From Acidobacteriota bacterium (GTDB lineage: Bacteria > Acidobacteriota > Aminicenantia > JBFLYD01): 45,512 bases of DNA. A program made the position numbers and the translations under genes. A model generated the notes under the pieces. The model worked only from the letters and a program-made list of their open reading frames with translations. It was not told where the DNA came from and searched no databases. The first letter of the stretch is position 1. Each line of letters opens with the position of its first letter. This document shows positions 1,868 to 24,490 of this stretch, piece after piece. The stretch spans positions 1-45,512 of the forward strand of contig JBFLYD010000004.1 of NCBI GenBank assembly GCA_040756905.1, written 5' to 3'.

Positions 1868-2905
1868 TTAAAAAATGGAACCTTCCATTAATTTTTTATC
1901 CCATTCGTAGAATTCATTGCTAAAATAGACGACTCTTTTCTTTTTAAATTCCTTTAAACTGGATAGAATTTCGTAATCTTTTATTCCTGTTTTTTCAGAG
2001 ATTCTCTTAACAATTTCATAACAATCTTCTTCCTTTCTGCAGTGTATCATTGTAAATAGAGAATAGGGCCAGTTCGGGTAGGTGGGTCTCTGATAACAGT
2101 GGCTCACTGCATTGAATGAAGCCATTATTTTTCCACATTTATCGATGTATTTTTCATCAACAACCCAGACAACCATGGCGTTAAATTTAAACCCTAAATT
2201 TCTGTGATATAGCACAGCTGACATTCTTCTCATGATTTTTTTATCAATCAGAGATTTTGCGATTTTTATTAAATTATTTTGGGATATATCAATTCTTTCT
2301 GATAACTCTTTAAAGGGTTCTGGTTCTAAAGGAAGGTCATTTTGCAATTCCTTGATACAGGATATCTCAAGAGATGAAAGTTTGGGGATATAATCCCTGG
2401 GTTTAAATTCATTTCTACGTTCATTTTGCACTGTAATAGATTCAGTTCCACTGGCATCAAGGTTTACCCCAATTTTAAAAACTTTAATCGCAGGAAGGAT
2501 AAGATAGTTTTTTGCTTTTGAAAGAAGATAAATTTTTTCTACAGTTTTTTCTAAATTTAGCTCAGAGGGTAATGCTAAAGTAAACCATAGATTGAACCTA
2601 TGATTTCTTAGATAATTATGACTTACCCCAGGATGAGAATTTATAATTTTTGCTGCCTTTTCTAAATTTTTTTCTGCAACTTCAAAAGCTACCAGGATAC
2701 TGCTATATCCAAGACTCTGGGCGTTAAATATCCCCCTGATTTCTCTTATTATTTTTTCTTTTTTAAGATTGTTTATTCTTTCAATCACTTCATTTTCTCC
2801 GATTTCCAATAAATCTCCGATCTTTTTGAAAGGTCTTTTTTGCAATGGAATCTGTCTCTGAATTAAATTTAATAATTCTTTATCTTTATCGTCGATATTA
2901 TTCAT
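1868..2905 (-). CDS. ahbAB: Siroheme decarboxylase, AhbA-AhbB fusion (Lrp/AsnC-like)
   Basis: A 345-residue protein made of two homologous Lrp/AsnC-like halves, roughly 1-150 and 175-330, each with an N-terminal winged helix and a C-terminal ligand domain. In this family AhbA and AhbB form the heterodimer that decarboxylates the C12 and C18 acetates of siroheme to 12,18-didecarboxysiroheme. The halves carry the family signatures GVSHNYLRNHRFNLW (residues 93-107) and AVSHCYQRPTYPNWPYSLF (266-284), whose histidines are at or near the heme-substrate site. Most anaerobes encode the two subunits separately; fusions resemble denitrifier NirDL. It is the last gene of the heme operon, seven bases after hemL. 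An ordinary Lrp regulator is unlikely because of the tandem fusion and the ahbC/ahbD neighbours. Confidence 0.88.
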   Translation of the reverse strand: MNNIDDKDKELLNLIQRQIPLQKRPFKKIGDLLEIGENEVIERINNLKKEKIIREIRGIFNAQSLGYSSILVAFEVAEKNLEKAAKIINSHPGVSHNYLRNHRFNLWFTLALPSELNLEKTVEKIYLLSKAKNYLILPAIKVFKIGVNLDASGTESITVQNERRNEFKPRDYIPKLSSLEISCIKELQNDLPLEPEPFKELSERIDISQNNLIKIAKSLIDKKIMRRMSAVLYHRNLGFKFNAMVVWVVDEKYIDKCGKIMASFNAVSHCYQRPTYPNWPYSLFTMIHCRKEEDCYEIVKRISEKTGIKDYEILSSLKEFKKKRVVYFSNEFYEWDKKLMEGSIF

Positions 2906-2912
2906 TGTTATC

Positions 2913-4199
2913 TCAGGAGAATATAGATTTCAATGACTCGTAGTTCGCTTTTATCGTGAGTTCTAAATCTTTTTCAGTATGGGCTGAGGATAAAAATATT
3001 GCTTCAAATTGTGATGAAGCTATGTAAATTCCTTTTTTTAGCATGTATCTGAAATAGATAGAAAACTTTTCTGTGTCAGATTTCTGGGCTGATTCAAAAT
3101 CATTTATCTTTTCTTTTGTAAAGTAAAGGCAGCTCATCGAATTAAATCTTATATAATTTAAAGGAGCCTTTAATTTTTTTATGTTTTCTTTTATTCCTTC
3201 CTCAAGAATTCTTGATTTAATCTCAAGTTTTTCGTAAAAATCTGGAGTATTTTTTATTAAATTAAGAGTCTCATAACCTGCTCTCATTGCGACTGGATTG
3301 CCGGATAAAGTGCCTGCCTGATAAACAGGTCCTTCAGGGGATATTAAACTCATTATTTCATTTTTCCCTCCATAAGCTCCAACAGGAAATCCCCCTCCTA
3401 TTATCTTCCCAAGTGTTGTCAGATCAGGGTTTACATTAAAAATTTTCTGGGCTCCTCCAAAATTTACTCTAAAACCAGTCATAACCTCATCAAAGATGAG
3501 CAATATTTTTTCATTTTCTGTTATTTCTCTCAGCTGATTCAGAAAATTATCCTCAGGAATGACGCATCCCATGTTTCCTGCAACTGGCTCAATGATAATT
3601 GCTGCAATTTTTCCCTTGTTCTCATCCACAAGCTTCTTTACTGAGTTTATATCATTAAATTTTGCATTCAATGTATCTTTCGCTGAACTCCTGGTAATGC
3701 CTGGGCTTGAAGGTGTGCCAAAAGTTAAGGCTCCTGAACCAGCTTTAATCAGAAAGCTATCGCTATGGCCATGGTAACATCCTTCAAACTTTATAATTTT
3801 ATCTCTATTGGTATAAGCCCTTGCCACTCTTATGGCACTCATGGTCGCCTCAGTTCCTGAATTTACCATTCTTATTTTTTTAATTGAAGGAATTGCTTCA
3901 ATTATCAATTCAGCAAGTTTTATCTCATGTACATTTGGAGCTCCGAAGCTTATTCCTTTTTCTACAGATTCTTTTATAGCTTTTACTATCTGTGGGTGTG
4001 AGTGACCGAGAATCAGAGGTCCCCATGAAAGAATATAATCAATGTATTCCTTCCCCTCTGAATCCCATATTCTTGAGCCCAATCCTTTCTCGATAAATAC
4101 TGGAGTTTTCCTAACATTTTTAAATGCTCTAACAGGAGAATTTACTCCTCCCGGCATCAGTTTCTTCGCTTTTTCATATAGTTTCTTATTAGTTTTCAT
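2913..4199 (-). CDS. hemL: Glutamate-1-semialdehyde 2,1-aminomutase
   Basis: A 428-residue class III PLP aminotransferase-fold enzyme of normal length. It converts glutamate-1-semialdehyde to 5-aminolevulinate, the second step of the C5 pathway after HemA. The N-terminal MPGGVNSPVRAF signature is present, as are NSGTEATMSA (113-122), FDEVMTGFR (236-244) and the PLP-binding lysine K265 in TTLGKIIGGG. It starts with ATG, seven bases after the end of ahbD, inside the minus-strand heme operon. Nothing looks degenerate. Confidence 0.96.
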   Translation of the reverse strand: MKTNKKLYEKAKKLMPGGVNSPVRAFKNVRKTPVFIEKGLGSRIWDSEGKEYIDYILSWGPLILGHSHPQIVKAIKESVEKGISFGAPNVHEIKLAELIIEAIPSIKKIRMVNSGTEATMSAIRVARAYTNRDKIIKFEGCYHGHSDSFLIKAGSGALTFGTPSSPGITRSSAKDTLNAKFNDINSVKKLVDENKGKIAAIIIEPVAGNMGCVIPEDNFLNQLREITENEKILLIFDEVMTGFRVNFGGAQKIFNVNPDLTTLGKIIGGGFPVGAYGGKNEIMSLISPEGPVYQAGTLSGNPVAMRAGYETLNLIKNTPDFYEKLEIKSRILEEGIKENIKKLKAPLNYIRFNSMSCLYFTKEKINDFESAQKSDTEKFSIYFRYMLKKGIYIASSQFEAIFLSSAHTEKDLELTIKANYESLKSIFS

Positions 4200-4206
4200 T
4201 TTCTGC

Positions 4207-5274
4207 TCATATTATTTTCTTAATTTTTGGCTGATAAATGCAAAAGGGTTCTTCATCTAAGTAATTTCCAGAAATAGCATAAGCTCTTGCTCTGCATCCA
4301 CTGCATATTTTTCTATATTCACAGTATCCACATCTTCCATTGTACCCATCAATGTATCTTATCTCCTGAAAAAGAGACGATTCATCCCATATTTTTTTAA
4401 AATCCAAATTTTCTTTTCTTAAATCTCCTGCTTCAACATCGAGGAAACCGCAAATTTGAACTTTCCCGGTATGGGAAATAAAAGCAAAGCTTTGTCCTCC
4501 CATACATCCTTTCGTCATGGCATCAAGCCCATGAGTCTGAACGTTAACAGGTCTTCCTTTTGCTCTTTCTCTTTCTCTGAGGATTCTATAATAGTGAGGT
4601 GCGCATGTCGGTTTAAAATTAATCGGATTTTCTTCTCTTTTTTCATATACCCAATTGAGTATCCTTTCATATTCTTGGGGAGACAATTCCAGGTGAGCCA
4701 TGTTTTTTCCCCTTCCAGTTGGAACAAGCAAAAATGGATGGAAAGATATCGCTCCAAGTTTTACAGCTAAATTGAGAATTTGAGGAAGTTCCTGATAGTT
4801 TAACTTGCTCACTGTTGTATTTATTTGAAATTCTATTCCTTCCTTTCTTGCGATTTCTGCAGCTTTAATAACATCTCTAAAAGCGCCTTTGACCTGTCTT
4901 AAGCCATCGTGAGTCTCTTCATCCGCTCCATCTATACTAAGACTTATTCTTTTAATCCCTGATTGTTTCATTTTTTCAATTGAGCTTTCTGAAACGAGAA
5001 TCCCGCATGGAGCCATTACCATTTTTAGGCCTGATTGAGTGCCATAGGAGGCGATTTCAAAAATGTCGTTTCTCATCATCGGCTCTCCGCCAGTCAAGAT
5101 TATTATTGGCTTTGCGAAAGATGAAATATTTTCAAGAATTTTAAAGCATTCTTCAGTGGTTAATTCATCTTGAAAAAAATCTGCCGAGGCTCCAGCTCTG
5201 CAGTGTTTACATTTTAGATTGCAAGTCCTGGTGACCTCAAAAGCTATCAGTTTTGGAATAAATTTTTGTTCCAT
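4207..5274 (-). CDS. ahbD: AhbD, radical SAM heme synthase (Fe-coproporphyrin III decarboxylase)
   Basis: A 355-residue radical SAM protein when started at the ATG at 5272-5274. The SAM cluster motif is C18-x3-C22-x2-C25 in [15 protein letters not shown]-terminal auxiliary cluster region contains KGCMGGQSFAFISHTGK, QICGF and CGYCEYRKICSGC, as in AhbD. The enzyme oxidatively decarboxylates the two propionates of iron-coproporphyrin III, giving heme b in the final step. The frame stays open upstream to a TTG at 5316, but that stretch is not family-like and approaches the repeat at 5326-5433, so I prefer the internal ATG; its ribosome site is weak. Distinguished from AhbC, also present, by the CRA motif and the C-terminal cysteine pattern. 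Confidence 0.9.
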   Translation of the reverse strand: MEQKFIPKLIAFEVTRTCNLKCKHCRAGASADFFQDELTTEECFKILENISSFAKPIIILTGGEPMMRNDIFEIASYGTQSGLKMVMAPCGILVSESSIEKMKQSGIKRISLSIDGADEETHDGLRQVKGAFRDVIKAAEIARKEGIEFQINTTVSKLNYQELPQILNLAVKLGAISFHPFLLVPTGRGKNMAHLELSPQEYERILNWVYEKREENPINFKPTCAPHYYRILRERERAKGRPVNVQTHGLDAMTKGCMGGQSFAFISHTGKVQICGFLDVEAGDLRKENLDFKKIWDESSLFQEIRYIDGYNGRCGYCEYRKICSGCRARAYAISGNYLDEEPFCIYQPKIKKII

Positions 5275-5325
5275 AATTCCATTTGATTCAAAAATGGCCC
5301 GAAATATTAAAGTCAAATCTCAACA

Positions 5326-5433
5326 CTAATACAAACGAATTAAATAAATTGACATGTAGGGCATGGCTTTAGCCTTGCATTAAGCAACCCTGAAGGGTTG
5401 CCCTACAAATTATTTATTGCTTTTGTATTAATA
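5326..5433. repeat. MITE-like element filling the hemB-ahbD spacer
   Basis: An approximately 108-bp element with imperfect terminal inverted repeats of about 35 bp. The left end starts CTAATACAAACGAATTAAAT and the right end closes with TTGCTTTTGTATTAAT. The inner part reads GTAGGGCATGGCTTTAGCC...GGGTTGCCCTAC. It encodes no transposase. It occupies nearly the entire gap between hemB and ahbD, so the operon transcript would carry a long hairpin here. Confidence 0.7.
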
Positions 5434-5440
5434 ATAAACA

Positions 5441-6463
5441 TTAGTCTTGACCCAAGAAAGCATTGGTGTCAGGCCTGACACCCCTTTTTCCACTTTTCAA
5501 CTTTCTTGCCATGTCTTTTGCAAAATAAGTAAGAATTAAATCTGCCCCTGCTCTTTTTATCGAGGTTAATATTTCATACACGATTTTTTCTTCATCTATC
5601 CATCCTAATTTAGAGGCAGCTTTTACCATCGAAAATTCTCCGCTTACGTTATATGCAGCAATGGGCACAGAAAATCTATTTTTTGCCTGAGAGATTATGT
5701 CAAGATAGGATAGAGCTGGTTTTATCATTACAATGTCAGCTCCTTCTTCAATGTCTAACTCTATTTCTCTCAATGCTTCTCTTTGATTAGCAGGGTCCAT
5801 CTGATATGATTTTCTGTCTCCAAATTTTGGAGCAGATTCTGCTGCTTCTCTGAACGGGCCGTAAAAAGCAGAGGCAAATTTTGCAGAATATGCCATTATG
5901 GGGATATTTATTAATCCATTCGAATCAAGAGCTTCTCTTATAGCCTTAACTCTTCCGTCCATCATGTCTGATGGAGCAATTATATCAGCTCCAGCATTTG
6001 CATACACAACACTTGCTTTAGCAAGAAGTTTTAAGGTCTCATCATTTTTTACATATCCATTTTCGACAATCCCGCAATGACCATGACTTGTATATTCACA
6101 CATGCATACATCAGCGATCAGTATCAAGTCTGGTATTTCTTTTTTTATTGATTTTAGAGCCTGAGGAATTATTCCATTCTCATCGTAGGCTTCAGATCCT
6201 TTCTCATCTTTTCTCTCAGGAATTCCAAAAAGTATAACTGCTGGAATTCCAAGATTGAGGACTTCCTTGCATTCCTCAACCAGCATATCTACTGAAAATT
6301 GATAGTTTCCGGGCATTGATTTTATTTCATTTTTAATTTTTCTGTCGGGTCTTACAAAAAGGGGATAGATTAAATCGTTAATTGAAAGCTCTGTTTCTTT
6401 GACCATATTTCTTATAACTTCATTTTTTCTCAAACGTCTCATTCGATTCACAGGAAAGCTCAT
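5441..6463 (-). CDS. hemB: Porphobilinogen synthase (delta-aminolevulinate dehydratase), zinc type
   Basis: A 340-residue HemB that condenses two 5-aminolevulinate molecules to porphobilinogen. The two Schiff-base lysines are K195 ([17 protein letters not shown]) and K248 ([10 protein letters not shown]). The metal site carries C120, C122 and C130 ([13 protein letters not shown]), which marks the zinc-dependent class. Catalytic domains are complete. The last roughly 14 residues ([13 protein letters not shown]) run past the normal family end and are encoded by a REP-like palindrome at 5465-5482, so the C-terminus looks newly acquired. It follows ahbC by ten bases in the heme operon. Confidence 0.96.
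5465..5482. repeat. Perfect 18-bp palindrome inside the 3' end of hemB
   Basis: GGTGTCAGGCCTGACACC is a perfect palindrome. The half GTCAAGCCTGACACC recurs at 39795-39809, and the related GACCTGACCCC occurs at 15201-15248 and 19525-19572. It is read through in frame as the HemB tail. Confidence 0.7.
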
Positions 6464-6473
6464 ATTTTCCTCC

Positions 6474-7658
6474 TTATTTAAGACCTATTTCTTCATCGGT
6501 AAGATAGCATGCAGGGTCTTTTTCCCATACATCTCCTGTTTTTGCTTCAGCTCTCACTCTGAAATTTCCATTGCAGATATTGATCCATCTGCATCTTAAG
6601 CATTTTCCTTTTAAATAGGGCTTTCTGTATTTCAATTTCGCTATAAGGGGATCAGACAAATCCTCCCATATCTGGCTGAATTTTTTTTCTCTAACATTTC
6701 CAAAGGAATAATGCCTCCAGAATTGGTCTGGGTGAACATTGCCGTCCCAGGAGATGCATCCAATTCCTATTCCAGTGCTATTTCCTCCGTTCATTTGAAG
6801 AAGCTTCAGAACATCGTTTGATCTCGGATTCTTTTCTTTTTTCATTCTAAGGTAAAGATAGACTCCGTCTGCATGATTATCAACAGTTAACACTTCTTTA
6901 GGGAAGCCTCTTTCATACATTTCTTTTGTTTTATCAATTATTAAATCTACTGTGGCCCTTGTTTCTCCATGAGAAAGGTCTTCATCGATAAGTTCTGAAC
7001 CTCTTCCTGAATAAACAAGGTGATAGAAACATATTCGTTGAATATTTTCTTCAACGATTAGATTAAAGATCTCGGGAATATCTTTTACATTTCTTTTATT
7101 GATTGTAAACCTCAGGCCTACTTTTAATCCCTGTTCCTGGCAATTTCTTATTCCTCCAATTGCTCTTTTAAAAGCCCCTTTAACACCTCTGAAGTTATCG
7201 TTTGTTTCCTCAATTCCATCAAGACTTATTCCCACATAAGACAATCCTATTTTTTTAAGGGACCTTGCAACATCTTTTGTGATGAGCGTTCCGTTGGTTG
7301 AAACAACCGTTCTGATTCCTAAATTTTTTGCATGAATTGCCAATTCGAAAAAATCCTTTCTTATCAATGGCTCTCCGCCTGAGAAAAGAAGAACAGGTAC
7401 TCCATAGGATGCAAGGTCTTCTATTAATTTTTTTGCTTCATGGGTAGTTAGCTCATCTTCATAAATTTTATTAGTTGATTGAGAATAGCAATGAACACAT
7501 TTAAGGTTGCAAGTTCGGGTCATATTCCAGACAACAACTGGTTTTTTGTCTTCAGAGAACTGAAGAAGGTTTGAGGGAAGGTTTTTTGATTTTCTTCCGT
7601 ATCTGAGTAAATCAGACGGTTCAACTGTTCCAAGGTATAGTTTAGATATTCCTATCAT
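6474..7658 (-). CDS. ahbC: AhbC, radical SAM 12,18-didecarboxysiroheme deacetylase
   Basis: A 394-residue radical SAM protein with the AhbC signature along its length: [20 protein letters not shown] at the N-terminus, C50-x3-C54-x2-C57 in [55 protein letters not shown] and [13 protein letters not shown]. The C-terminal cysteines ([23 protein letters not shown]) fit an auxiliary iron-sulfur cluster. AhbC removes the C2 and C7 acetate chains of 12,18-didecarboxysiroheme, giving iron-coproporphyrin III for AhbD. Its ATG overlaps the stop of cobA-hemD by four bases (7655-7658), implying translational coupling. Confidence 0.93.
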
Positions 7659-9166
7659 TTGTTTTCCTTTTTGTAATAATTTAAAATTGACTCCACCAGT
7701 CCGGGAATTATATGAATTTTTGCTTCAACATCAGGCGTATAGCCTAATTCTTTAAGAGTATGGGAGGTAACAGGACCGATGCTTGCTATTTTAGCTCCAT
7801 CAATTTTCAGCTTTAGACTAAAGAAATTTTTTACAGTTGAAGAACTTGTAAATGTTATAAAATCTATTTTTTCTTTATTAATGTATTCTCTAACTTCTTC
7901 AGGTATATTTAATTCTCTCTCTGTTCTGTAGGCTACAATTGATTCAACTTCTGCTCCCTCTTTTTTAAGTTCATTTTCGATTAAATCTCTTGCTATATCT
8001 GCTCTGGGAAGAAGAATTTTTTTCCCGATAATTTTTTCCTTCTTTTTAAATTCCTTCAGGAATATTTCACTTGTAAATTCAGAAGGGTAGAAATCAACTT
8101 TGAGATTGAAACTTTCAATAAATTCTTTTGTAGCAGTGCCAATGGCTGCTATCTTTATTCCGTAAAGTTCCCTTAAGTCTTTTTTTATTTTTAGAAATCG
8201 TTCGATAAAGAATTTAAAACTATTTATACTTGTAAAAACAATCCAGTTAAAAGTTTTTATTCTCTTCATTGCATTATCTAAAGGCTTTAAATTGCGGGGT
8301 GGCAAAATTTTAATCGTAGGAATTTCTATCGTTTCAGCTCCCAGATCCTCCAGCAGTTCAGCTAATTTACTTGTCTGCTCACGGCTTCTTGTAATGATTA
8401 TTTTTTTTCCAAAAAGAAGTTTTGATTCATACCAGTTTAATTTTTCTCTCAGTTTAACTATTTCTCCAATAACGATTATCGCAGGAGGTTCAAAATTGTT
8501 TTTCTTTGCTAATTTAACGATATTTTTTAAATTTCCCATAATTGTTTTTTGAGAGGGAAGTGTTCCAAGTCTTATTATAGCCACAGGTGTTTCTGGCGAT
8601 TTTCCATATCTTAAGAGATTTTGAACAATTTTTTCTATATTCTTCATCCCCATGTAAAATATTAGAGTTTCGTAAGCGGAGGAAATCTTTTCCCAGTTTA
8701 GTCTGCTTCCTTTTTTTGAAGAATCCTCATGTCCAGTGATCAATCCAATTGTTGTATTAAAAACTCTGTGGCTTACGGGAATCCCTGCATAGGCAGGAAC
8801 AGCCACTGCTGCTGTTATACCCGGAACTACTTCAAATGGAATCCCTTTTTCAGCTAAATACAATGCTTCCTCTCCTCCTCTTCCGAACACAAATGGATCT
8901 CCTCCTTTTAATCTAACAACTATCTCCTTTTCTTTTGATTTTTCTTCCATTAATTTATTTATTGATTCCTGAGGAAGGGTGTGTTCTCCTGAGCTTTTTC
9001 CCACGTAAATTAGCTCTGCATTTTCTTTTACTTCTTTTAAAAGTTTTTTATTTATAAGGTTGTCATAAATAACAACATCAGCTTTTTTTAAAAACCTGAG
9101 ACCTTTTACAGATATCAGTTCCGGGTCTCCAGGCCCTGCTCCTATCAAATACACCTTTCCTTTCAT
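7655..9166 (-). CDS. cobA-hemD: Fused uroporphyrinogen-III C-methyltransferase / uroporphyrinogen-III synthase (CobA-HemD)
   Basis: A fusion of about 503 residues. The N-terminal SUMT domain (roughly 1-245) has KVYLIGAGPGDPELISVKG and the SAM-site VRLKGGDPFVFGRGGEE, and turns uroporphyrinogen III into precorrin-2. The C-terminal domain (roughly 255-500) is a HemD-type synthase with IIITRSREQTSKL near its start and FTSSSTVKNFF near its end; it closes hydroxymethylbilane to uroporphyrinogen III. I place the start at the ATG at 9164-9166, where the family normally begins. A GTG at 9241 would add 25 residues and almost abut hemC; neither start has a clear ribosome site. The fusion channels substrate toward siroheme, fitting the Ahb pathway. 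Confidence 0.93.
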   Translation of the reverse strand: MKGKVYLIGAGPGDPELISVKGLRFLKKADVVIYDNLINKKLLKEVKENAELIYVGKSSGEHTLPQESINKLMEEKSKEKEIVVRLKGGDPFVFGRGGEEALYLAEKGIPFEVVPGITAAVAVPAYAGIPVSHRVFNTTIGLITGHEDSSKKGSRLNWEKISSAYETLIFYMGMKNIEKIVQNLLRYGKSPETPVAIIRLGTLPSQKTIMGNLKNIVKLAKKNNFEPPAIIVIGEIVKLREKLNWYESKLLFGKKIIITRSREQTSKLAELLEDLGAETIEIPTIKILPPRNLKPLDNAMKRIKTFNWIVFTSINSFKFFIERFLKIKKDLRELYGIKIAAIGTATKEFIESFNLKVDFYPSEFTSEIFLKEFKKKEKIIGKKILLPRADIARDLIENELKKEGAEVESIVAYRTERELNIPEEVREYINKEKIDFITFTSSSTVKNFFSLKLKIDGAKIASIGPVTSHTLKELGYTPDVEAKIHIIPGLVESILNYYKKENK

Positions 9167-9243
9167 ATTAGTTCTAAAATAAATTTTTGTTAATAAGTAA
9201 AGTTTTGAGGTAAGATAATCTGATAAAAATTTTCTGAGCACCC

Positions 9244-10254
9244 TTACTGTTCAAAGAAATCTCCTTTATTTTCTTTTATAGAGAGGAGGATTTCTTTTCC
9301 TCCCTTTTCAATCAGAGTATTTGCAAGGTTTTCTCCAATTTCTTCACTTTCCTCAGGATAACCATCAATTTTTCCTCTTATTATTTTTGTTCCTTCTAAA
9401 TTAGATATCATTCCTGTGAGTTTTATTTTATTATCTTCTATAAGTGCTACTGCTCCAACTGGAATCTGGCAGCCTCCTCCAGGTATCTTATCCCTTAAAT
9501 ATTTTTTGTTATCATGTTGAAACACGATACTTTTCTGGTGTGTCCACGATATTCTCCTTAAAAAGCTTCTCTCAGCTTTTATAGATTGAAAAGCCTTATA
9601 GTCATTTAAATTCCTGACAATTTTATAAATCTCTTCATCATCTTTTCTTATTTCAATCGCTATGGCTCCCTGACCCGGAGCTGGAAGCATTGTATCAAAA
9701 GGAATTATTTCAGATATAAAAGATTCAAGGTTGAGTCTTTTTATGCCTGCATATGAAACGATGATTCCATCTAAACCCAAGCTTTCAAGTTTTTTGATTC
9801 TCGTGTCTATGTTTCCTCTGATAGTTTCTATTCTTATATCATTTCTGAAGTATAAAATTTGAGAAATTCTTCTCAAGCTGCTGGTTCCGATTTTTGCTCC
9901 ATAAGGAAGTTCGTTCAGCTTATATTTGGAGATTAAAACATCATTTGGGATTTCCCTTTCCGGGACTGCAGCAATTATCAATTCCTCTGGTAAATCCGTG
10001 GGCAAATCTTTCATGCTGTGAACAGCTAAATCAATTTTTCGTTCTATAAGAGCATTTTCAATTTCTTTTGTGAAGATTCCTTTATCGTTTATTTTTGAAA
10101 GGGGAGTATCAAGAATTTTATCTCCTTTTGTTTTAATCGGAATTATTTCAGCCTTTAAATTATTTAATTTCTCTAATTTATTTTTTACAAAGTTTGCCTG
10201 CCAGAGGGATAGCTTACTTCCTCTTGTTCCAATTTTAATTTTCATTCTTTTCAT
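9244..10254 (-). CDS. hemC: Hydroxymethylbilane synthase (porphobilinogen deaminase)
   Basis: A HemC of about 336 residues that polymerises four porphobilinogens into hydroxymethylbilane. It has IKIGTRGSKLSLWQA at the N-terminus, VHSMKDLPT, the LPAPGQGAIAIE motif and the dipyrromethane cofactor cysteine in GGGCQIPVGA. The protein is longer than usual because of a 23-residue insertion (9481-9549) between FLRRI and GGGCQIP, directly before the cofactor loop. Starts at 10254 or 10245 (ATG) are both plausible and overlap the end of hemA by 20 or 11 bases; a TTG further up at 10272 is less likely. Confidence 0.94.
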   Translation of the reverse strand: MKRMKIKIGTRGSKLSLWQANFVKNKLEKLNNLKAEIIPIKTKGDKILDTPLSKINDKGIFTKEIENALIERKIDLAVHSMKDLPTDLPEELIIAAVPEREIPNDVLISKYKLNELPYGAKIGTSSLRRISQILYFRNDIRIETIRGNIDTRIKKLESLGLDGIIVSYAGIKRLNLESFISEIIPFDTMLPAPGQGAIAIEIRKDDEEIYKIVRNLNDYKAFQSIKAERSFLRRISWTHQKSIVFQHDNKKYLRDKIPGGGCQIPVGAVALIEDNKIKLTGMISNLEGTKIIRGKIDGYPEESEEIGENLANTLIEKGGKEILLSIKENKGDFFEQ

Positions 10255-11521
10255 GTGTTTTTTCAAGCTCAAAAATTTCTCTTATAGTATCAAGTCGAAG
10301 AAGACCTATTTCAGAATCTTCATTGAATTCTTTTATTTTAGTCATCGGCCCATGCAGGATCTTATTAACAAGGCTTTTTGCAAAAATATCGAGCATTTCT
10401 ATGTTTTCTTCTTTGAAATATTTCTTGTTTTTTTGAATCTCAGCGTTCCTTATATGTTCAACTTTTTCCTTTAACTTCTGGATTAGTGGTGAAACTTTTA
10501 AGGATCTGAACCAGGAAAAAAATTTTTTTACTTCCTCTTCTATAATTGCTTCAGCTTTTGGAATTTCAGCAAATCTTCTGGCTAAATTCTTATCAGAAAT
10601 AGTCTGAAGGTCATCGATTGAATAGAGAAACACATTGTATAGTTTGTTTATCTCTGGTTCAAAATCTCTTGGAACAGCAATGTCTATTATAAAGATAGGT
10701 CTATGATTTCTAAAATTCATTATTGATTTCATTTGATCAAGTATTATAATCGGTTCAGCTGAGCCTGTTGAACTTATTACAATGTCTACTTTATTAAGGA
10801 TCTCAGTAATTTTATCGAACGGAATTGCTTCAGCTTCCATTTTTTTAGCTAAATCTTCTGCCTTAGAAAAAGTTCTGTTAGCAATGAATAGTTTTTTAAT
10901 ACCCTTCTCTTTTAAAAGTTGTGCTGTTAGCTCTCCTGTTTCGCCTGCTCCTATTAAAAGGCTTGGATGGGATGAGATGTCCTTAAATATTTTTTGAGCC
11001 ATTTCCACTGCAATACTGCTTACTGAAACTACTCCAGATCCTATATCTGTTTCGGATCTAACTCTTTTTCCAACTCTGAATGAGTTATGAAAGAGCTTAT
11101 TAAGGATTATCCCATTTGTCCCGGCCTGACATGAGAGTGAATAAGCCTGCTTAATCTGACCAAGGATTTGATTTTCTCCAACAGCCATTGAATCGAGCCC
11201 TGAGGCTACTTCAAAGATATGTTTTATCGATTGTTCTAAATTTAAGATATATGAAATTTTTTCATCGATCAATAAATTTATTCCTTTTTTTAAGTATATA
11301 AAATTAAAAATATAATCAATTACTTCAGCCCTTAAAGAAGTGGTGACAAGATATAATTCAGTCCTGTTGCAGGTTGAAAGGATTGAAGATTCTTTTATAA
11401 GATTTTTTTCTTTTTTGATTTCTTTAAGAGATTCAAAAATTTCAGATGAAGAGAATACTAATTTTTCCCTTATATCAAGAGGAGCTGTTTTATGATTTAC
11501 GCCAATTGTTATTAAATCCAT
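10235..11521 (-). CDS. hemA: Glutamyl-tRNA reductase
   Basis: A 428-residue GluTR, first enzyme of the C5 route, which reduces glutamyl-tRNA to glutamate-1-semialdehyde with NADPH. The nucleophile is C51 in LSTCNRTELYLV. The N-terminal ITIGVNHKTAPLDIREKL, the substrate-site SGLDSMAVGENQILGQIK, and the nucleotide motif LLIGAGETGELTAQLL are all intact. A helical C-terminal dimerisation domain follows. The start overlaps the end of the precorrin-2 dehydrogenase gene by ten bases, and the 3' end overlaps hemC. Confidence 0.97.
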   Translation of the reverse strand: MDLITIGVNHKTAPLDIREKLVFSSSEIFESLKEIKKEKNLIKESSILSTCNRTELYLVTTSLRAEVIDYIFNFIYLKKGINLLIDEKISYILNLEQSIKHIFEVASGLDSMAVGENQILGQIKQAYSLSCQAGTNGIILNKLFHNSFRVGKRVRSETDIGSGVVSVSSIAVEMAQKIFKDISSHPSLLIGAGETGELTAQLLKEKGIKKLFIANRTFSKAEDLAKKMEAEAIPFDKITEILNKVDIVISSTGSAEPIIILDQMKSIMNFRNHRPIFIIDIAVPRDFEPEINKLYNVFLYSIDDLQTISDKNLARRFAEIPKAEAIIEEEVKKFFSWFRSLKVSPLIQKLKEKVEHIRNAEIQKNKKYFKEENIEMLDIFAKSLVNKILHGPMTKIKEFNEDSEIGLLRLDTIREIFELEKTHEKNEN

Positions 11522-12141
11522 TTTTTTATTTTATTTTTAATTTTTTTTATGTCTTTTTTTGTCAGGGAGAGGATATTTTCGGAATTTACAATGGATTCTA
11601 AAATTTTCTCCCTTTTCTTTTCATCATCAGGGTAGATTTTCTTTAATTTTTTTCTAAGTTTTCCCAAGAGATTAAGCAGTTCTATTACTTCATCATTTAT
11701 GAGATTCTGGATTTCCTCTCTAAGTTTTTTTGCCAATGAAGGACTTTTCCCGTTTGTTGAAATAGCTATTTTCAAATCTTTTTTATGGAATGAAGAAGGA
11801 ACAAAAAAGCTGCATTTTTCCGGAGCATCTACAACATTACAGAGGATTTTATATTTAGCTGCTTCTTTTGCTATTAATCTATTAGTGGAATCAGAATCAG
11901 TTGCAGCAATTGCAATGAAAAAATCTTTTATGTCTCCTTTCTGATAATTTCTTTTAAGTATTTGAACAGGATATTTTCTTGATAAGTCTGAAATATTTTT
12001 TGACACTTTCGGACTTATCACTGTTATCCTCGCTTTTGATTCAATAAGAGACAAAATTTTTCTCTCCGCTACTTTTCCTCCGCCTATTACAAGACAATCC
12101 TTGTTCTCAAGTTTAAGAAATACTGGGTATAGATAGTTCAT
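11512..12141 (-). CDS. Precorrin-2 dehydrogenase / probable sirohydrochlorin ferrochelatase (Met8p/CysG-N type)
   Basis: A 209-residue protein of the siroheme-synthase N-terminal family. The NAD-binding motif VIGGGKVAERKI is near the N-terminus, and VVDAPEKCSFFVPS carries the conserved aspartate used by Met8p/CysG for both dehydrogenation and iron insertion. It oxidises precorrin-2 to sirohydrochlorin. No CbiX/SirB-type chelatase lies in the window, so this protein probably also inserts Fe2+, completing siroheme; that second activity is inferred. It sits nine bases after the ccsA-like gene and overlaps hemA, so it is co-expressed with the heme genes. Confidence 0.9.
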   Translation of the reverse strand: MNYLYPVFLKLENKDCLVIGGGKVAERKILSLIESKARITVISPKVSKNISDLSRKYPVQILKRNYQKGDIKDFFIAIAATDSDSTNRLIAKEAAKYKILCNVVDAPEKCSFFVPSSFHKKDLKIAISTNGKSPSLAKKLREEIQNLINDEVIELLNLLGKLRKKLKKIYPDDEKKREKILESIVNSENILSLTKKDIKKIKNKIKKWI

Positions 12142-19587: not shown

Positions 19588-19617
19588 TTGAAATTTTGTT
19601 TTTTGGAGAGGTATAAT
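19588..19617 (+). promoter_or_regulatory. Sigma70-type promoter of the 47-residue peptide gene
   Basis: TTGAAA (19588-19593), 18 bases, then consensus TATAAT (19612-19617). The peptide ATG is 33 bases further on, preceded by TAAGGAGGG (19635-19643). A dedicated promoter and strong ribosome site support real, high expression of the small gene. Confidence 0.6.
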
Positions 19618-19649
19618 TGAAAGCAAAAAAAAATTAAGGAGGGTTTAAA

Positions 19650-19793
19650 ATGACAGACAAAGCTTTGTTTGAGGCAAAAAAATTAATCGAGGAGGGTCTC
19701 TCCTACGAAGAGGTTGTAAAAAGATTAAAAGAAGAGTTTAATGGAGGTGAATCAGTATTATATGCTATAATGGCATTTACAGGGATTAAGTAA
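19650..19793 (+). CDS. 47-residue peptide, candidate substrate of the downstream radical SAM enzyme
   Basis: The frame encodes 47 residues, starting MTDKALFEAKKLIEEGLSYE and ending in ESVLYAIMAFTGIK. I recognise no family. The first 30 residues are charged and helical (AKKLIEEGLSYEEVVKRLKE). After an NGG turn the last 14 are hydrophobic (SVLYAIMAFTGIK), a leader-plus-core layout. It has a consensus-like promoter, a strong Shine-Dalgarno (TAAGGAGGG) and lies 76 bases before a B12-binding radical SAM/SPASM-like gene on the same strand. A ribosomally made precursor modified by that enzyme is inferred. An unrelated small helical regulator is the alternative. There are no cysteines, so thioether bridges are excluded; C-methylation or carbon-carbon crosslinks would be possible. 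Confidence 0.6.
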   Translation: MTDKALFEAKKLIEEGLSYEEVVKRLKEEFNGGESVLYAIMAFTGIK

Positions 19794-19838
19794 AAAAAAT
19801 TTAAAAATTTGTTTTAAGAAAGAATAAAGTTTAAAAAA

Positions 19839-19863
19839 GAATAATATTAATTTAATATTATTC
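19839..19863 (+). promoter_or_regulatory. Perfect 12-bp AT-only hairpin between the peptide and radical SAM genes
   Basis: Arms GAATAATATTAA and TTAATATTATTC flank a single T. It ends six bases before the radical SAM ATG and covers the place where a ribosome site would be; no Shine-Dalgarno is visible. It may lower maturase output relative to the peptide, or be a weak processing or termination site. Confidence 0.55.
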
Positions 19864-19869
19864 CCAATA

Positions 19870-22065
19870 ATGAATAATAGAAGTCTAATTTTTATTTTCC
19901 CTCCAGAGGCTGCAAAAAAAGATTTTTTACATCATTTAGGGGTTGGATACATCCAGGCTTTTTTGAAAAAAAGAGAAATTGATTCAATTCAATATGTTCC
20001 TGAAGAAAGATTAAGCGTAGAATCCCTTGTGGAAGAAGTTCTTGATTTTGGGCCTATTTTTATTGGATTTACTGTCTTTGACTTTAACTATTATCTTGTT
20101 AAAATAATTTCAAAAAAATTAAAGCAAAGAAATAAATCGATTCAAATTTTAGCAGGAGGACCAACGGCAACTTTTTCTGATTCATTGATAATGGAAGATA
20201 ATCCATCCATCGATATCTGTGTAAGAGGGGAGGGAGAATACACTGTCTATGAATTACTTAATCATTTTGTTGAAAACGGAGACTTAAATGACATCGGTTA
20301 TATCCAGGGTATAACTTACAGAAAAAATGGGAAAATAGAAAGAACTCCTGATAGACCATTGATTAGAGATTTTTCCAATAAAGATGGAGAACTCGATGTA
20401 ATTCCCTCTCCTTATTTAGAGGGAGTCTTTAGAGGAGATGAAAAAACAGGGATTTTAACATCGAGGGGTTGCACTTTTAAGTGCACTTACTGCAATTTTA
20501 CGATTATGTCTAAAAATAGAATAAGGTATCATTCAATCGATAGGGTAATTTCAGAACTAAGAATCATAAACGATACAATGGTAAAAGAAAATCTATTGAA
20601 TGAATCAGTAAACATATATGATGATGCTTTTTCTTTAAACATAAATCGGGCAAAGGAAATATGTAAAAGAATTGCAAAAGAAAATTTTAAGATAAAATTT
20701 TCCTGTGAGACAAGAGTTGACAGAATGGATGAGGAGCTTTTAGAGTTGATGAAAAAAGCAGGGATTAAGGACTTATCCTTCGGGCTTGAGAGTGCAGTTC
20801 CTGAGATCTTAAGAAACATAAAAAAAGTTGGAGATTTTAGAACAGATGATTTTAAGAAAGAAAAGGAATTCATCGAAAAGATTAAATACTATGTAAATTT
20901 TGCAAAAAATATAGGTTTAAACCCGGTTGTGAGTATAATCTCAGGGCTTCCGGGTGAAACTCTAAAAGACGGGAAAAAAACAGTTCAATTTGTCAAAGAA
21001 TTAAATTTAGATTTTTATGCCCATAATTTCTTACAGATATTTCCAGGAACAGAATTGTTTTATACTCATAAAAATTATGGGATTGGAATTGAAAAGAGCC
21101 CATCCTTACTTCCATTTGAAACAATTTTTTCCTATGATGTATCAAAAGTTCCTTTTGGAAAAAATTCAACGATTCAGAATGAAAAAGATAAAGCGATTTC
21201 ATTTATTATCTCAGGTCTTGTAAATTCCCAGGAAAGAGCTTTTTCAAAATCCTCTGTTTTAACAGATGTAGTTTTAAAGAATATAAATGAACTTAATAAT
21301 AATTTAATTGAATGGCTTTCAAAAAACTCATCCCTTCTTTCAAACATGATCTTTTTATATGATAGAAAAGAATTTGAGCGTGAAGATACAATAAAAAAGA
21401 TGATTTATGGTGAAGTTCCAACAAAAAAGTTTTACTTTCTAAAGCTAATAATAAACAAATTAAAAAAAGAACTATCGGAAGCAAAAATATATCATTTCGT
21501 AACTTCAAAAGCATATAGATGGGATTTGTATTTTTCCTTTGTTCCCTTTCGATATTTTGCAAATAATAAAAATAAAAAATTATATGAAATATCTAAAGTT
21601 ATTTATGAAATAAAAAATGAAGATGATTTAAAATATTTTGAAGAATTTATTCCTTTGATGTTTGATGAAGAAAAAAAAGAATTAAAAAAAGAATTGATGG
21701 ATTTTAAAGGATGTTTTTTAAATGGATGCAGATGGTCAAACAGAGAATGTCCATCTTTAAACCTTCAGAAAATTATAATAGAAGAAGATGGCTCTATTAA
21801 ACCATGTATTACAGGAAAGAAAATAGGATCAGTGGGAGAAAATCTTGATGAAATAGAAAAAAGGTTTCTGGAATTATTTGAAAAAGAGAAAAAAATAAGA
21901 GGCTGTAATTATTGTGAGATAAAAGAATTCTGTTCAAAATGTGTTTTTCCACTTTCAATAGATGTTAAAAAATATTGTGAGATAAGGAGAAAATACCTTT
22001 TTATATCAAAGATAGTGAATTTTATGGAGATTGCATCAAGGATGCCAGGTTTAATTAAAGAGTGA
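19870..22065 (+). CDS. B12-binding radical SAM protein with C-terminal SPASM-like cysteine cluster
   Basis: A 731-residue enzyme. Residues 1-150 are a cobalamin-binding-like Rossmann domain (ILAGGPTATFSDSLI, DICVRGEGEYTVYELL) lacking the DxHxxG base-ligand motif, as is usual for B12 radical SAM enzymes. The radical SAM core begins with C201-x3-C205-x2-C208 (SRGCTFKCTYCNF). Residues 450-610 are unassigned. Cysteines at 615, 620, 627, 646, 679, 682, 688, 691 and 703 (for example GCNYCEIKEFCSKC) resemble a SPASM domain binding extra iron-sulfur clusters, typical of peptide-modifying radical SAM enzymes. This and the 47-residue gene upstream suggest a peptide maturase; the reaction is unknown. 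The 3' end overlaps the convergent kinase-like gene by 11 bases. Confidence 0.8.
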   Translation: MNNRSLIFIFPPEAAKKDFLHHLGVGYIQAFLKKREIDSIQYVPEERLSVESLVEEVLDFGPIFIGFTVFDFNYYLVKIISKKLKQRNKSIQILAGGPTATFSDSLIMEDNPSIDICVRGEGEYTVYELLNHFVENGDLNDIGYIQGITYRKNGKIERTPDRPLIRDFSNKDGELDVIPSPYLEGVFRGDEKTGILTSRGCTFKCTYCNFTIMSKNRIRYHSIDRVISELRIINDTMVKENLLNESVNIYDDAFSLNINRAKEICKRIAKENFKIKFSCETRVDRMDEELLELMKKAGIKDLSFGLESAVPEILRNIKKVGDFRTDDFKKEKEFIEKIKYYVNFAKNIGLNPVVSIISGLPGETLKDGKKTVQFVKELNLDFYAHNFLQIFPGTELFYTHKNYGIGIEKSPSLLPFETIFSYDVSKVPFGKNSTIQNEKDKAISFIISGLVNSQERAFSKSSVLTDVVLKNINELNNNLIEWLSKNSSLLSNMIFLYDRKEFEREDTIKKMIYGEVPTKKFYFLKLIINKLKKELSEAKIYHFVTSKAYRWDLYFSFVPFRYFANNKNKKLYEISKVIYEIKNEDDLKYFEEFIPLMFDEEKKELKKELMDFKGCFLNGCRWSNRECPSLNLQKIIIEEDGSIKPCITGKKIGSVGENLDEIEKRFLELFEKEKKIRGCNYCEIKEFCSKCVFPLSIDVKKYCEIRRKYLFISKIVNFMEIASRMPGLIKE

Positions 22066-24490
22066 ATTCTTTTTTATATTTTTCCCACCTTTTCTTTAAA
22101 TTCTCCATTATTTTTTTGAATTCAGGTTCATTTCTGATGTTATTAAGGTTAGGGTCAACAAGGAACCATGGATAATTTTCATTTCCATATTTAATTGCTT
22201 CTTTAAACCATTTCAAAGCTAATTGTTTATCATTCTGCAAAGAATAATATGAGGCGACAAAATAAGTAAAATCTCCATCGTAATTGGCTAAATGCATTAC
22301 TTCTTCTATAGCTTTTTCAGCTTCTTTATTTTTTCCCTGCTTTGAATAAATCATAGAAAGGATGAAATAAGGTGCTTTGTGCTCAGGGTTATATTTCAAA
22401 CTTTCTTTTAAGGTTGACATAGCCTCATTATATTTTTTTTCATAAAATAACAAATATCCAGAATACACCAATCCGATCGGATGATTGTTTTGAATTTTAA
22501 AGACTTTTTCTAATTCATTCTTTGCTTTAGAAAAATCATTTTTATAGATATAAATTCTACCTCTGTTTATGTAGCTTAAAACATTAAGTTCATTATTTTT
22601 TTCTAATTTTTCAGCTTTTTCTAAAGCCTTATCCAGTAAACCTGCATATTCATAGATTGTTCCTAACATAGCGATTACAAATTCATTGTTAGGGTTAATT
22701 TTATAGACATATTCAATCTGTTTATAAGCTTTCTCTTTTTCACCATTTTTAAAATATATTGCAGCTAAATTTGTATGGGCTTCAATCAGATCTTTATCTA
22801 TCTCAAGAGCTTTTAAACTCATCTCTCCTCCTTTTTTCAATAGATCCTCTTCACTTTTAATTCCATATTCAAGATAAAACCATGCATTTCTTCCTAAGGC
22901 TGCATAGGCAGGTGCATAATTTTTATCGATTTCCAAAGATTTCTTCAGCATCTCATCAGATCTATCCAGATATTCTTTCCTTATTTCTTTTATAAACTCA
23001 GCGTTATAGTATTTTCCTTTTAAGTAAAACTCGTATGCCTTTGGGTTTACTTTCATTCTTTTTTCCATTCTTCCCCTTTCTTTTTTAGAAAGGTCTACAT
23101 CTAAAGTTCTGATTAATTCTCTTCCTATATCGTATTTTATGTAAGGAATATTGTATTCACTCAAATTCAATTCGCTTGCCCAGAGAAGCCCTGGAGTTCC
23201 TTCCTTTACTTTTACAATTTTTGTTTTAAGTTTAATCCTATCCTTTTCTTTCTTTAATTCTCCATCAACGATAACATCGGCTTTAAGTTCTTTTGCAATC
23301 TCTTGAATGTCTTTCTTTTTTTCTTCATACCTCAGCATTGTGCTCAATGGTCTGACCGCAAAGTTCTTTACAGGAAAAAGGCTTGAAATAATTTCATCAG
23401 TTAGTCCAATGCTCATGAAGTTATACTCTTTATTTTTTGTAGCATTATCAATGGGAAGAACAGCGATTGAAATGGTAGGTTGGGGCTTATAATAAAACTT
23501 TTTAACTGCTGGAATTATAACAAATGAAATTATCAATGCTGCAGCTAAAGAATAAGCAGCTACTTTTTTCACTAAGGCAGTCAGGTACTGTTTTTTCTTT
23601 CTTCTTTCCACATAAGGCTTTACAAGTTCAGTATACAAGGGAACCATTTCGCTGAATGCCTGTTCAGTACTTCTATACCCTTTCTCTTTTTTCCTCTCAA
23701 GAAGCATCATGATTAAATCTCCGAACTCATAATAGATGTCCCTTTTGATGTTTTCAATATGAGTTATATCATCATAAATAGCTGTAAACATAAAAAGGAA
23801 AACCGATTCTGTTTTAAAAGGGTGAACTCCAGAGGTCATTTCATACAAGACAATGCCAGTAGAAAAAAGGTCTGATCTAAACTCAATCGGCTTATCATCA
23901 AGATGAGCCGGAGAAAAATATTTAATTTCTTCTACTATGCTTACATAAGGCTTTTTTGGGTCAACCTCTGTGTATTCCCAGCTTAGTTTATAACCTATTA
24001 CAGGGTTGGGCTCGAAGAAATTTATAATTTTAATTTTATCATTCCTGGTCAGAACTATATTCTCCGGCTTGATATTTTCATGGATGACATTTTTTTTATG
24101 GGCGTAGTTAAGAGCGGATAAAATTTGATAACCAATGTGGATAGCTCTCTCCTGCTCAAAGGGATATGAATCCACTAATTTGTCCAGGAAAGTCCCTGTA
24201 ATATCTTCAAGCTCAACTATAATCTCTCCATCTTCTTCCCATACTGCATAAACTTCCTGTATATTATCATGCTTAAGGATTTTTGCTTTTCTTGCTTTAT
24301 GAAAAAATAGAGTTCTGTAGTCTTTATCCCTGGAAAGAAATTTATGGAGAATTTTTAACCAGACCATTTTTTTAGTGGTTCGATCTATAGCTCTATAAAC
24401 AACCCCGATCTGATCTTTATATAGCTCTTTTAAAATTTTAAAATTTGATTTTTCTCTACTTATTTTTGTTTCATTCATTTTTTCCCCCAT
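22055..24490 (-). CDS. Membrane-anchored kinase-like (predicted pseudokinase) / TolB-like / TPR protein
   Basis: An 811-residue protein. Residues 20-290 have a Ser/Thr protein kinase fold: K46 stands at the VAIK position, but the HRD motif reads HEN (H137-N139, then IKPEN), the DFG motif reads NFF (157-159), and the glycine loop is degenerate (YKDQIGVVYRA). Loss of both catalytic aspartates predicts a pseudokinase. One transmembrane helix lies at about 308-330. Residues 339-460 match the TolB-like/FlgO domain found with kinases and cyclases (ISIAVLPIDNATKNKEYNF). TPR repeats fill about 480-800. The start at 24490 may be four residues too long: the ATG at 24476-24478 is preceded by a GGGGGA ribosome site. 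Confidence 0.85.
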   Translation of the reverse strand: MGEKMNETKISREKSNFKILKELYKDQIGVVYRAIDRTTKKMVWLKILHKFLSRDKDYRTLFFHKARKAKILKHDNIQEVYAVWEEDGEIIVELEDITGTFLDKLVDSYPFEQERAIHIGYQILSALNYAHKKNVIHENIKPENIVLTRNDKIKIINFFEPNPVIGYKLSWEYTEVDPKKPYVSIVEEIKYFSPAHLDDKPIEFRSDLFSTGIVLYEMTSGVHPFKTESVFLFMFTAIYDDITHIENIKRDIYYEFGDLIMMLLERKKEKGYRSTEQAFSEMVPLYTELVKPYVERRKKKQYLTALVKKVAAYSLAAALIISFVIIPAVKKFYYKPQPTISIAVLPIDNATKNKEYNFMSIGLTDEIISSLFPVKNFAVRPLSTMLRYEEKKKDIQEIAKELKADVIVDGELKKEKDRIKLKTKIVKVKEGTPGLLWASELNLSEYNIPYIKYDIGRELIRTLDVDLSKKERGRMEKRMKVNPKAYEFYLKGKYYNAEFIKEIRKEYLDRSDEMLKKSLEIDKNYAPAYAALGRNAWFYLEYGIKSEEDLLKKGGEMSLKALEIDKDLIEAHTNLAAIYFKNGEKEKAYKQIEYVYKINPNNEFVIAMLGTIYEYAGLLDKALEKAEKLEKNNELNVLSYINRGRIYIYKNDFSKAKNELEKVFKIQNNHPIGLVYSGYLLFYEKKYNEAMSTLKESLKYNPEHKAPYFILSMIYSKQGKNKEAEKAIEEVMHLANYDGDFTYFVASYYSLQNDKQLALKWFKEAIKYGNENYPWFLVDPNLNNIRNEPEFKKIMENLKKRWEKYKKEFTL

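Follow-up and report, generated by a model that had tools for sequence, protein, structure and literature searches.

A stretch of 45,512 nucleotides of Acidobacteriota DNA (the window) encodes on its forward strand a 47-residue peptide (19650–19793) and, 76 bases downstream on the same strand, a 731-residue enzyme (19870–22065), which joins a B12-binding domain and a radical SAM core to a probable SPASM domain. Both genes and the gap between them are as described in the original prediction. We interpret the pair as a two-gene cassette of the RiPP type, with a probability of about 0.7. For the enzyme family, the RiPP reading is well supported by sequence comparisons, because peptide genes lie beside the enzymes of relatives, one relative belongs to a cluster that encodes PqqD, a radical SAM/SPASM enzyme and an ABC transporter, and the enzymes contain a SPASM domain. 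For the window pair, the same reading is likely. The peptide and the enzyme of the window are linked by position, from which we infer that the peptide is the substrate of the enzyme.

The small open reading frame (ORF) at 19650–19793 is a genuine protein-coding gene, since it has the only strong ribosome-binding site among the intergenic ORFs of 20–89 residues in the window and the highest codon-usage score. The ribosome-binding site AAGGAGGG (19636–19643), which the original prediction had noted, ends six bases before the start of the ORF. The codon-usage log-odds of the ORF are +19.2 bits, or 0.41 bits per codon, which ranks first among the 34 intergenic ORFs in the window; the runner-up reaches 0.21 bits per codon, about half as much, and the other five frames of 19650–19793 have negative scores. 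The product, MTDKALFEAKKLIEEGLSYEEVVKRLKEEFNGGESVLYAIMAFTGIK, is composed of a charged, helical part (residues 1–33) and a hydrophobic tail (residues 34–47, ESVLYAIMAFTGIK). It lacks cysteine, which excludes a thioether in the product, and it matches no family in Pfam or NCBIfam, in agreement with the earlier description of a cysteine-free peptide outside known leader families. The NGG turn that had been singled out as a feature of the peptide is not conserved in the peptides of relatives.

A sigma-70-like promoter, TTGAAA-N18-TATAAT, is located at 19588–19617 on the forward strand and agrees with 11 of 12 consensus positions. The sequence of the proposed dedicated promoter is therefore present and the promoter is plausible, but it is not significant, because the scan of this AT-rich DNA gives three such sites and 3.4 are expected by chance. 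The region between the two genes contains an AT-rich hairpin (19839–19863, forward strand), a feature missing from the original prediction, with a stem of 11 base pairs and a loop of three bases (z −3.07 relative to shuffled sequences), and no Shine-Dalgarno sequence was recognised upstream of the enzyme ORF. The hairpin may keep the synthesis of the enzyme lower than that of the peptide.

The catalytic half of the enzyme consists of a B12-binding domain (residues 20–129, positions 19927–20256; Pfam PF02310, E 2.5e-14) followed by a radical SAM core (residues 196–375, positions 20455–20994; PF04055, E 2.4e-18), which corroborates the predicted domains. The CxxxCxxC motif is formed by C201, C205 and C208, which are invariant in an alignment of the enzyme with seven full-length relatives. 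Both domains are present in all eight aligned proteins, and the position of the B12-binding domain N-terminal to the CxxxCxxC core is that of class B cobalamin-binding radical SAM enzymes. An RRE domain was not detected in the enzyme by Pfam. The enzyme gene is AT-rich, with 29% GC; certain other genes of the window are equally low, and therefore we do not conclude that the enzyme gene was acquired by recent horizontal transfer. The solved structures nearest by profile are an apramycin-pathway enzyme, TokK, CysS and OxsB, and these matches are limited to the catalytic half. AlphaFold models were too poor for testing peptide binding or the SPASM fold (pLDDT of 57 for the whole enzyme and 54 for the C-terminal domain), and a Foldseek search with the model of the C-terminal domain gave nothing usable.

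No NCBIfam model covers the enzyme over its length or reaches its cutoff, and the best matches end near residue 404. HpnJ (135 bits, cutoff 577.6) and BchE (113 bits, cutoff 481) belong to a type of B12 radical SAM enzyme with small-molecule substrates; judged by score, this type is nearest to the window enzyme over the catalytic half, HpnJ having the best score of all, but the match ends before the SPASM tail. The second-best match is to ApyD of the aminopyruvatide-type RiPPs (117.8 bits, cutoff 750, E 5e-34), which is likewise a B12 radical SAM enzyme, but the similarity is confined to residues 51–378. The C-methyltransferases of the rSAM_ocin_1 or PoyB–PoyC type (TIGR03975) resemble the window enzyme in combining a B12-binding domain with a radical SAM core and act on a ribosomal peptide, as is proposed for the window enzyme; the N-terminal half is homologous. 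However, the window enzyme scores far below the cutoff of this family (64 bits, cutoff 282, E 8e-18), and the match ends at residue 374, leaving the SPASM domain outside.

The C-terminus of the enzyme is, on the sequence evidence, a diverged SPASM domain (cysteines 620–703, positions 21727–21978). We accept this assignment because of a near-cutoff match to TIGR04085, a profile comparison that outperforms shuffled alignments, and the conserved spacing of cysteines. The nine C-terminal cysteines of the original prediction are residues 615, 620, 627, 646, 679, 682, 688, 691 and 703, and the spacing from residue 620 onwards is C-x6-C-x18-C-x32-C-x2-C-x5-C-x2-C-x11-C. Most members of the family keep C-x6/8-C-x16/18-C-x32-C-x2-C-x5-C-x2-C-x11-C; L053, L057 and G435 deviate slightly from this spacing, and L055 has partly lost it. 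The SPASM pattern of a Cx2-4Cx5Cx2-3C block with a distal cysteine and upstream cysteines is present and conserved; the last gap is 11 residues in the window enzyme compared with the 14–18 quoted in PMC5682303, and the rest of the pattern fits. The C-terminal 129 residues match TIGR04085 with an E-value of 5.4e-5 and 23.5 bits (cutoff 27), and three other members of the family also match this model. When aligned by hhalign to true SPASM domains, represented by two haem-pathway enzymes of the window that carry the Pfam SPASM domain and two maturases from related loci (n = 4), the C-terminal alignment of the family scored 28.4, compared with 17.6 for the best of 100 column shuffles, none of which was as good, and 12.4 for the reversed alignment. 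The family C-terminus also has weak matches to the peptide-maturase models GG_samocin_CFB, PapB and CcpM. The Pfam SPASM model PF13186 does not match the enzyme, and a search of PDB profiles with the C-terminal alignment returned only a chance match.

The enzyme family is sparsely distributed. We searched 142 genomes of the class, a sample of 396 genomes of the phylum, and 37 further genomes from the class of one relative with the full-length enzyme alignment. Besides the window genome, full-length members were found in two of the 142 genomes, one with two copies (G064) and one with four (G076), and in one genome of the phylum sample (G435); the rest of that sample and the 37 other genomes of the G435 class contain no member. 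A scan of GTDB species genomes added one more full-length relative, from a deltaproteobacterial metagenome-assembled genome (L057), and a plasmid collection yielded just half-length matches to generic B12 radical SAM proteins. The window enzyme shares 28–33% identity with its relatives, and the window organism is the sole member of its taxonomic family in the genomes searched.

Small ORFs are located in front of the enzyme, or of its operon, at every locus with visible upstream DNA: in the window, on contigs C377 and C157 of G076, on contigs C186 and C687 of G064, and in L057. The contig of G435 ends at the enzyme gene and gives no upstream information. Contig C377 of G076 reads peptide, enzyme, enzyme, peptide, enzyme, peptide, with the enzymes at L054 6500–8752, 9068–11302 and 11289–13556; the peptide gene at L054 6288–6461 comes after its enzyme. 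On contig C157, the enzyme comes after two peptide genes that are nearly identical, and on contig C186 it comes after one. The peptides of contigs C377, C157 and C186 form a clear family, and most of their genes have a GGAGG site. A profile of this family gave six clear matches in the 142 class genomes, all six beside the enzymes, and a seventh, weak match (E 0.0027), which reads through stop codons. The enzyme at L055:1782–3962, which has two near-identical peptide genes in front of it, has lost most of the cysteines of the CxxCx5CxxC block and may represent either a variant with a single cluster or a copy in decay.

The neighbourhoods of several relatives resemble RiPP loci. The region of contig C377 (L054, L067) is, by its gene content, a dense RiPP island: four leader ORFs of class I lanthipeptides surround the three enzymes and three peptide genes, and a Clo7bot-like radical SAM/SPASM maturase, a cysteine-rich 62-residue ORF and an ABC transporter follow about 6 kb further on. 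On contig C687 (L053:115–2274), a 58-codon ORF with the perfect ribosome-binding site AAAGGAGG is followed by a B12 radical SAM enzyme related to the rSAM_ocin_1 C-methyltransferases of RiPPs (TIGR03975, E 4e-35) and then by the family member; two B12 radical enzymes may thus act in one RiPP pathway at this locus. In L057, the enzyme gene is preceded, at a distance of 139 bases, by a 58-codon ORF that has a GGAG site, and is followed by genes for an HprK-related kinase, a methyltransferase, a radical SAM/SPASM enzyme, PqqD, an ABC transporter and NTP_transf_5. The C-terminal segment of the L057 ORF product, ALACTKSTSGRISACTTCKSAGSLSS, contains cysteine. The deltaproteobacterial cluster (L057:7652–17589), with two radical SAM/SPASM enzymes of which one has a B12 domain, appears RiPP-like from its gene content.

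The peptides of relatives are similar in size to the window peptide and also have a hydrophobic C-terminal tail. By eye, they share with it a charged helix, a G-L turn (a GLxxxxLV hairpin) and a short tail of small, hydrophobic and aromatic residues, a likeness that we do not count as evidence. Homology found no support in rankings with hidden Markov models or in region-preserving shuffles: the score of the window peptide against the profile of the relatives' peptides lies within the range of shuffled sequences, and the scores of pairwise alignments were reached by 15–50% of shuffles. No convincing homologue of the window peptide was found in 100 related genomes. The original prediction asked whether the small gene always precedes the enzyme in relatives; a small ORF does lie in front of the enzyme or its operon wherever upstream DNA is visible. 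The proposal that the pair is a RiPP system agrees with the relatives' peptides and the L057 cluster at the level of the family, but the window peptide itself has no detectable similarity to those peptides.

Next to the pair, we recognised no gene of the window as encoding a transporter, a protease or an RRE protein, which matches the original prediction for the first two. Export through a double-glycine leader is unlikely, since the NGG turn is not conserved and no C39 peptidase was detected in the genome. The product may remain in the cell or leave by an unlinked exporter. The enzyme gene converges, with an overlap of 11 bases, on a reverse-strand gene (22055–24490) for a Ser/Thr protein kinase with C-terminal TPR repeats. 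The reverse strand of the window also contains a block of the alternative, siroheme-based haem pathway (1868–12141). Its gene at 1868–2905 encodes a siroheme decarboxylase in which AhbA and AhbB are fused in one ORF, with both NCBIfam equivalogs above cutoff, the gene at 6474–7658 encodes AhbC, and the product of 4207–5316 scores just below the AhbD cutoff.

Instead of modifying the peptide, the enzyme could, like HpnJ and BchE, act on a small molecule, a lipid or a tetrapyrrole; the small gene would then encode an unrelated small protein that lies in front by chance. The models of HpnJ and BchE are among the best-scoring for the N-terminal 400 residues, the haem-synthesis block is about 8 kb away, and the peptides of the window and of relatives are dissimilar in sequence. 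However, the scores are far under the cutoffs, with the best model below a quarter of its threshold, and the matches stop near residue 404, whereas the SPASM tail, the peptide genes adjacent to the relatives' enzymes and the RiPP-like cluster of L057 all indicate peptide substrates. We consider a small-molecule substrate unlikely; no small-molecule family, HpnJ and BchE included, matches the enzyme over its full length.

Both SPASM and B12 radical enzymes include members that modify proteins, such as anSME, which acts on sulfatase, and Mmp10, which acts on MCR. The window enzyme might thus have a larger cellular protein as its target, and the 47-residue product might be an accessory or chaperone that binds the enzyme or the target. 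Over its N-terminal two thirds, the peptide resembles a soluble charged helix, and the absence of a visible export route would suit such a role. Nevertheless, no candidate target is adjacent to the pair, the relatives' peptides resemble that of the window in size and likewise end in a hydrophobic tail, and one copy of the enzyme is part of a PqqD-containing cluster, which makes this explanation improbable. Rather than encoding a substrate, the small ORF could regulate the weakly initiated enzyme gene as a leader ORF or enhance its translation, which would account for a hairpin that separates an ORF with a strong ribosome-binding site from one that has none. The codon usage of the small ORF indicates selection on the encoded protein, however, and the G076 peptide gene that follows its enzyme is not placed as a leader ORF would be, so that we regard this role as very improbable.

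Based on the RiPP reading of the pair, a mechanism can be proposed. The 47-residue peptide would be a precursor produced in excess over the enzyme, because its gene has a strong ribosome-binding site, and a hairpin and no recognisable ribosome-binding site precede the enzyme gene. The charged helical N-terminal part of the peptide would serve as a leader, and the cysteine-free hydrophobic tail is the likely core. The enzyme, for which three iron-sulfur clusters are predicted, presumably binds methylcobalamin and SAM, and the 5′-deoxyadenosyl radical would abstract hydrogen from one of the side chains of the peptide tail. The resulting carbon radical may receive a methyl group from methylcobalamin, the outcome favoured by precedent, or form a bond with another residue. 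The SPASM clusters would help to bind the peptide or to transfer electrons. Methylation of unreactive carbons is established for B12 radical SAM enzymes (PMC5682303), and the methylation expected in the original prediction is suggested by this domain precedent. If the product is a RiPP, C-methylation is the likeliest outcome, with roughly even odds, followed by a C–C or C–O cross-link. In a biphenomycin-like system (pbs), a B12 radical SAM enzyme cross-links aromatic residues with no obvious role for cobalamin (PMC12257519). The auxiliary clusters of SPASM domains are needed for modification and were proposed to bind the substrate or carry electrons (PMC8326336, PMC5682303).

The pbs cross-linker is a B12 radical SAM enzyme like that of the window, but it has an MNIO partner (PMC12257519), none of which was recognised beside the window pair. 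The SPASM maturases (Clo7bot, PapB, CcpM, AlbA and SCIFF) share with the window the C-terminal two-cluster cysteine pattern and the adjacent small precursor gene, but the window peptide has no cysteine from which a thioether could be made. SPASM and B12 radical SAM enzymes are treated as separate groups in the reviews consulted (PMC8326336, PMC5682303), and auxiliary clusters go unmentioned in a review from December 2025 that covers cobalamin radical SAM enzymes (PMC13331322). The literature covered on SPASM, cobalamin radical SAM enzymes and RiPPs, which largely excludes subscription journals, describes no single enzyme with both domains. This suggests that the combination of B12 and SPASM within one RiPP enzyme is undescribed. 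We speculate, tentatively and with the odds against it, that the family represents a new class of RiPPs, whose single enzyme would apply both methylcobalamin and SPASM clusters to a cysteine-free hydrophobic core for chemistry unseen with either alone, for example C-methylation coupled to oxidative cross-linking; such a class would be thinly spread in uncultured bacteria and have fast-diverging precursors.

B12 radical SAM enzymes perform C-methylations and ring closures that are hard for chemists, and SPASM enzymes form cross-links in peptides. A compact two-gene system that pairs an enzyme having B12 and SPASM domains with its own peptide would be suited to learning what the combination does, and the family's nine enzymes could be tested side by side with several candidate peptides, drawn from different genomes.
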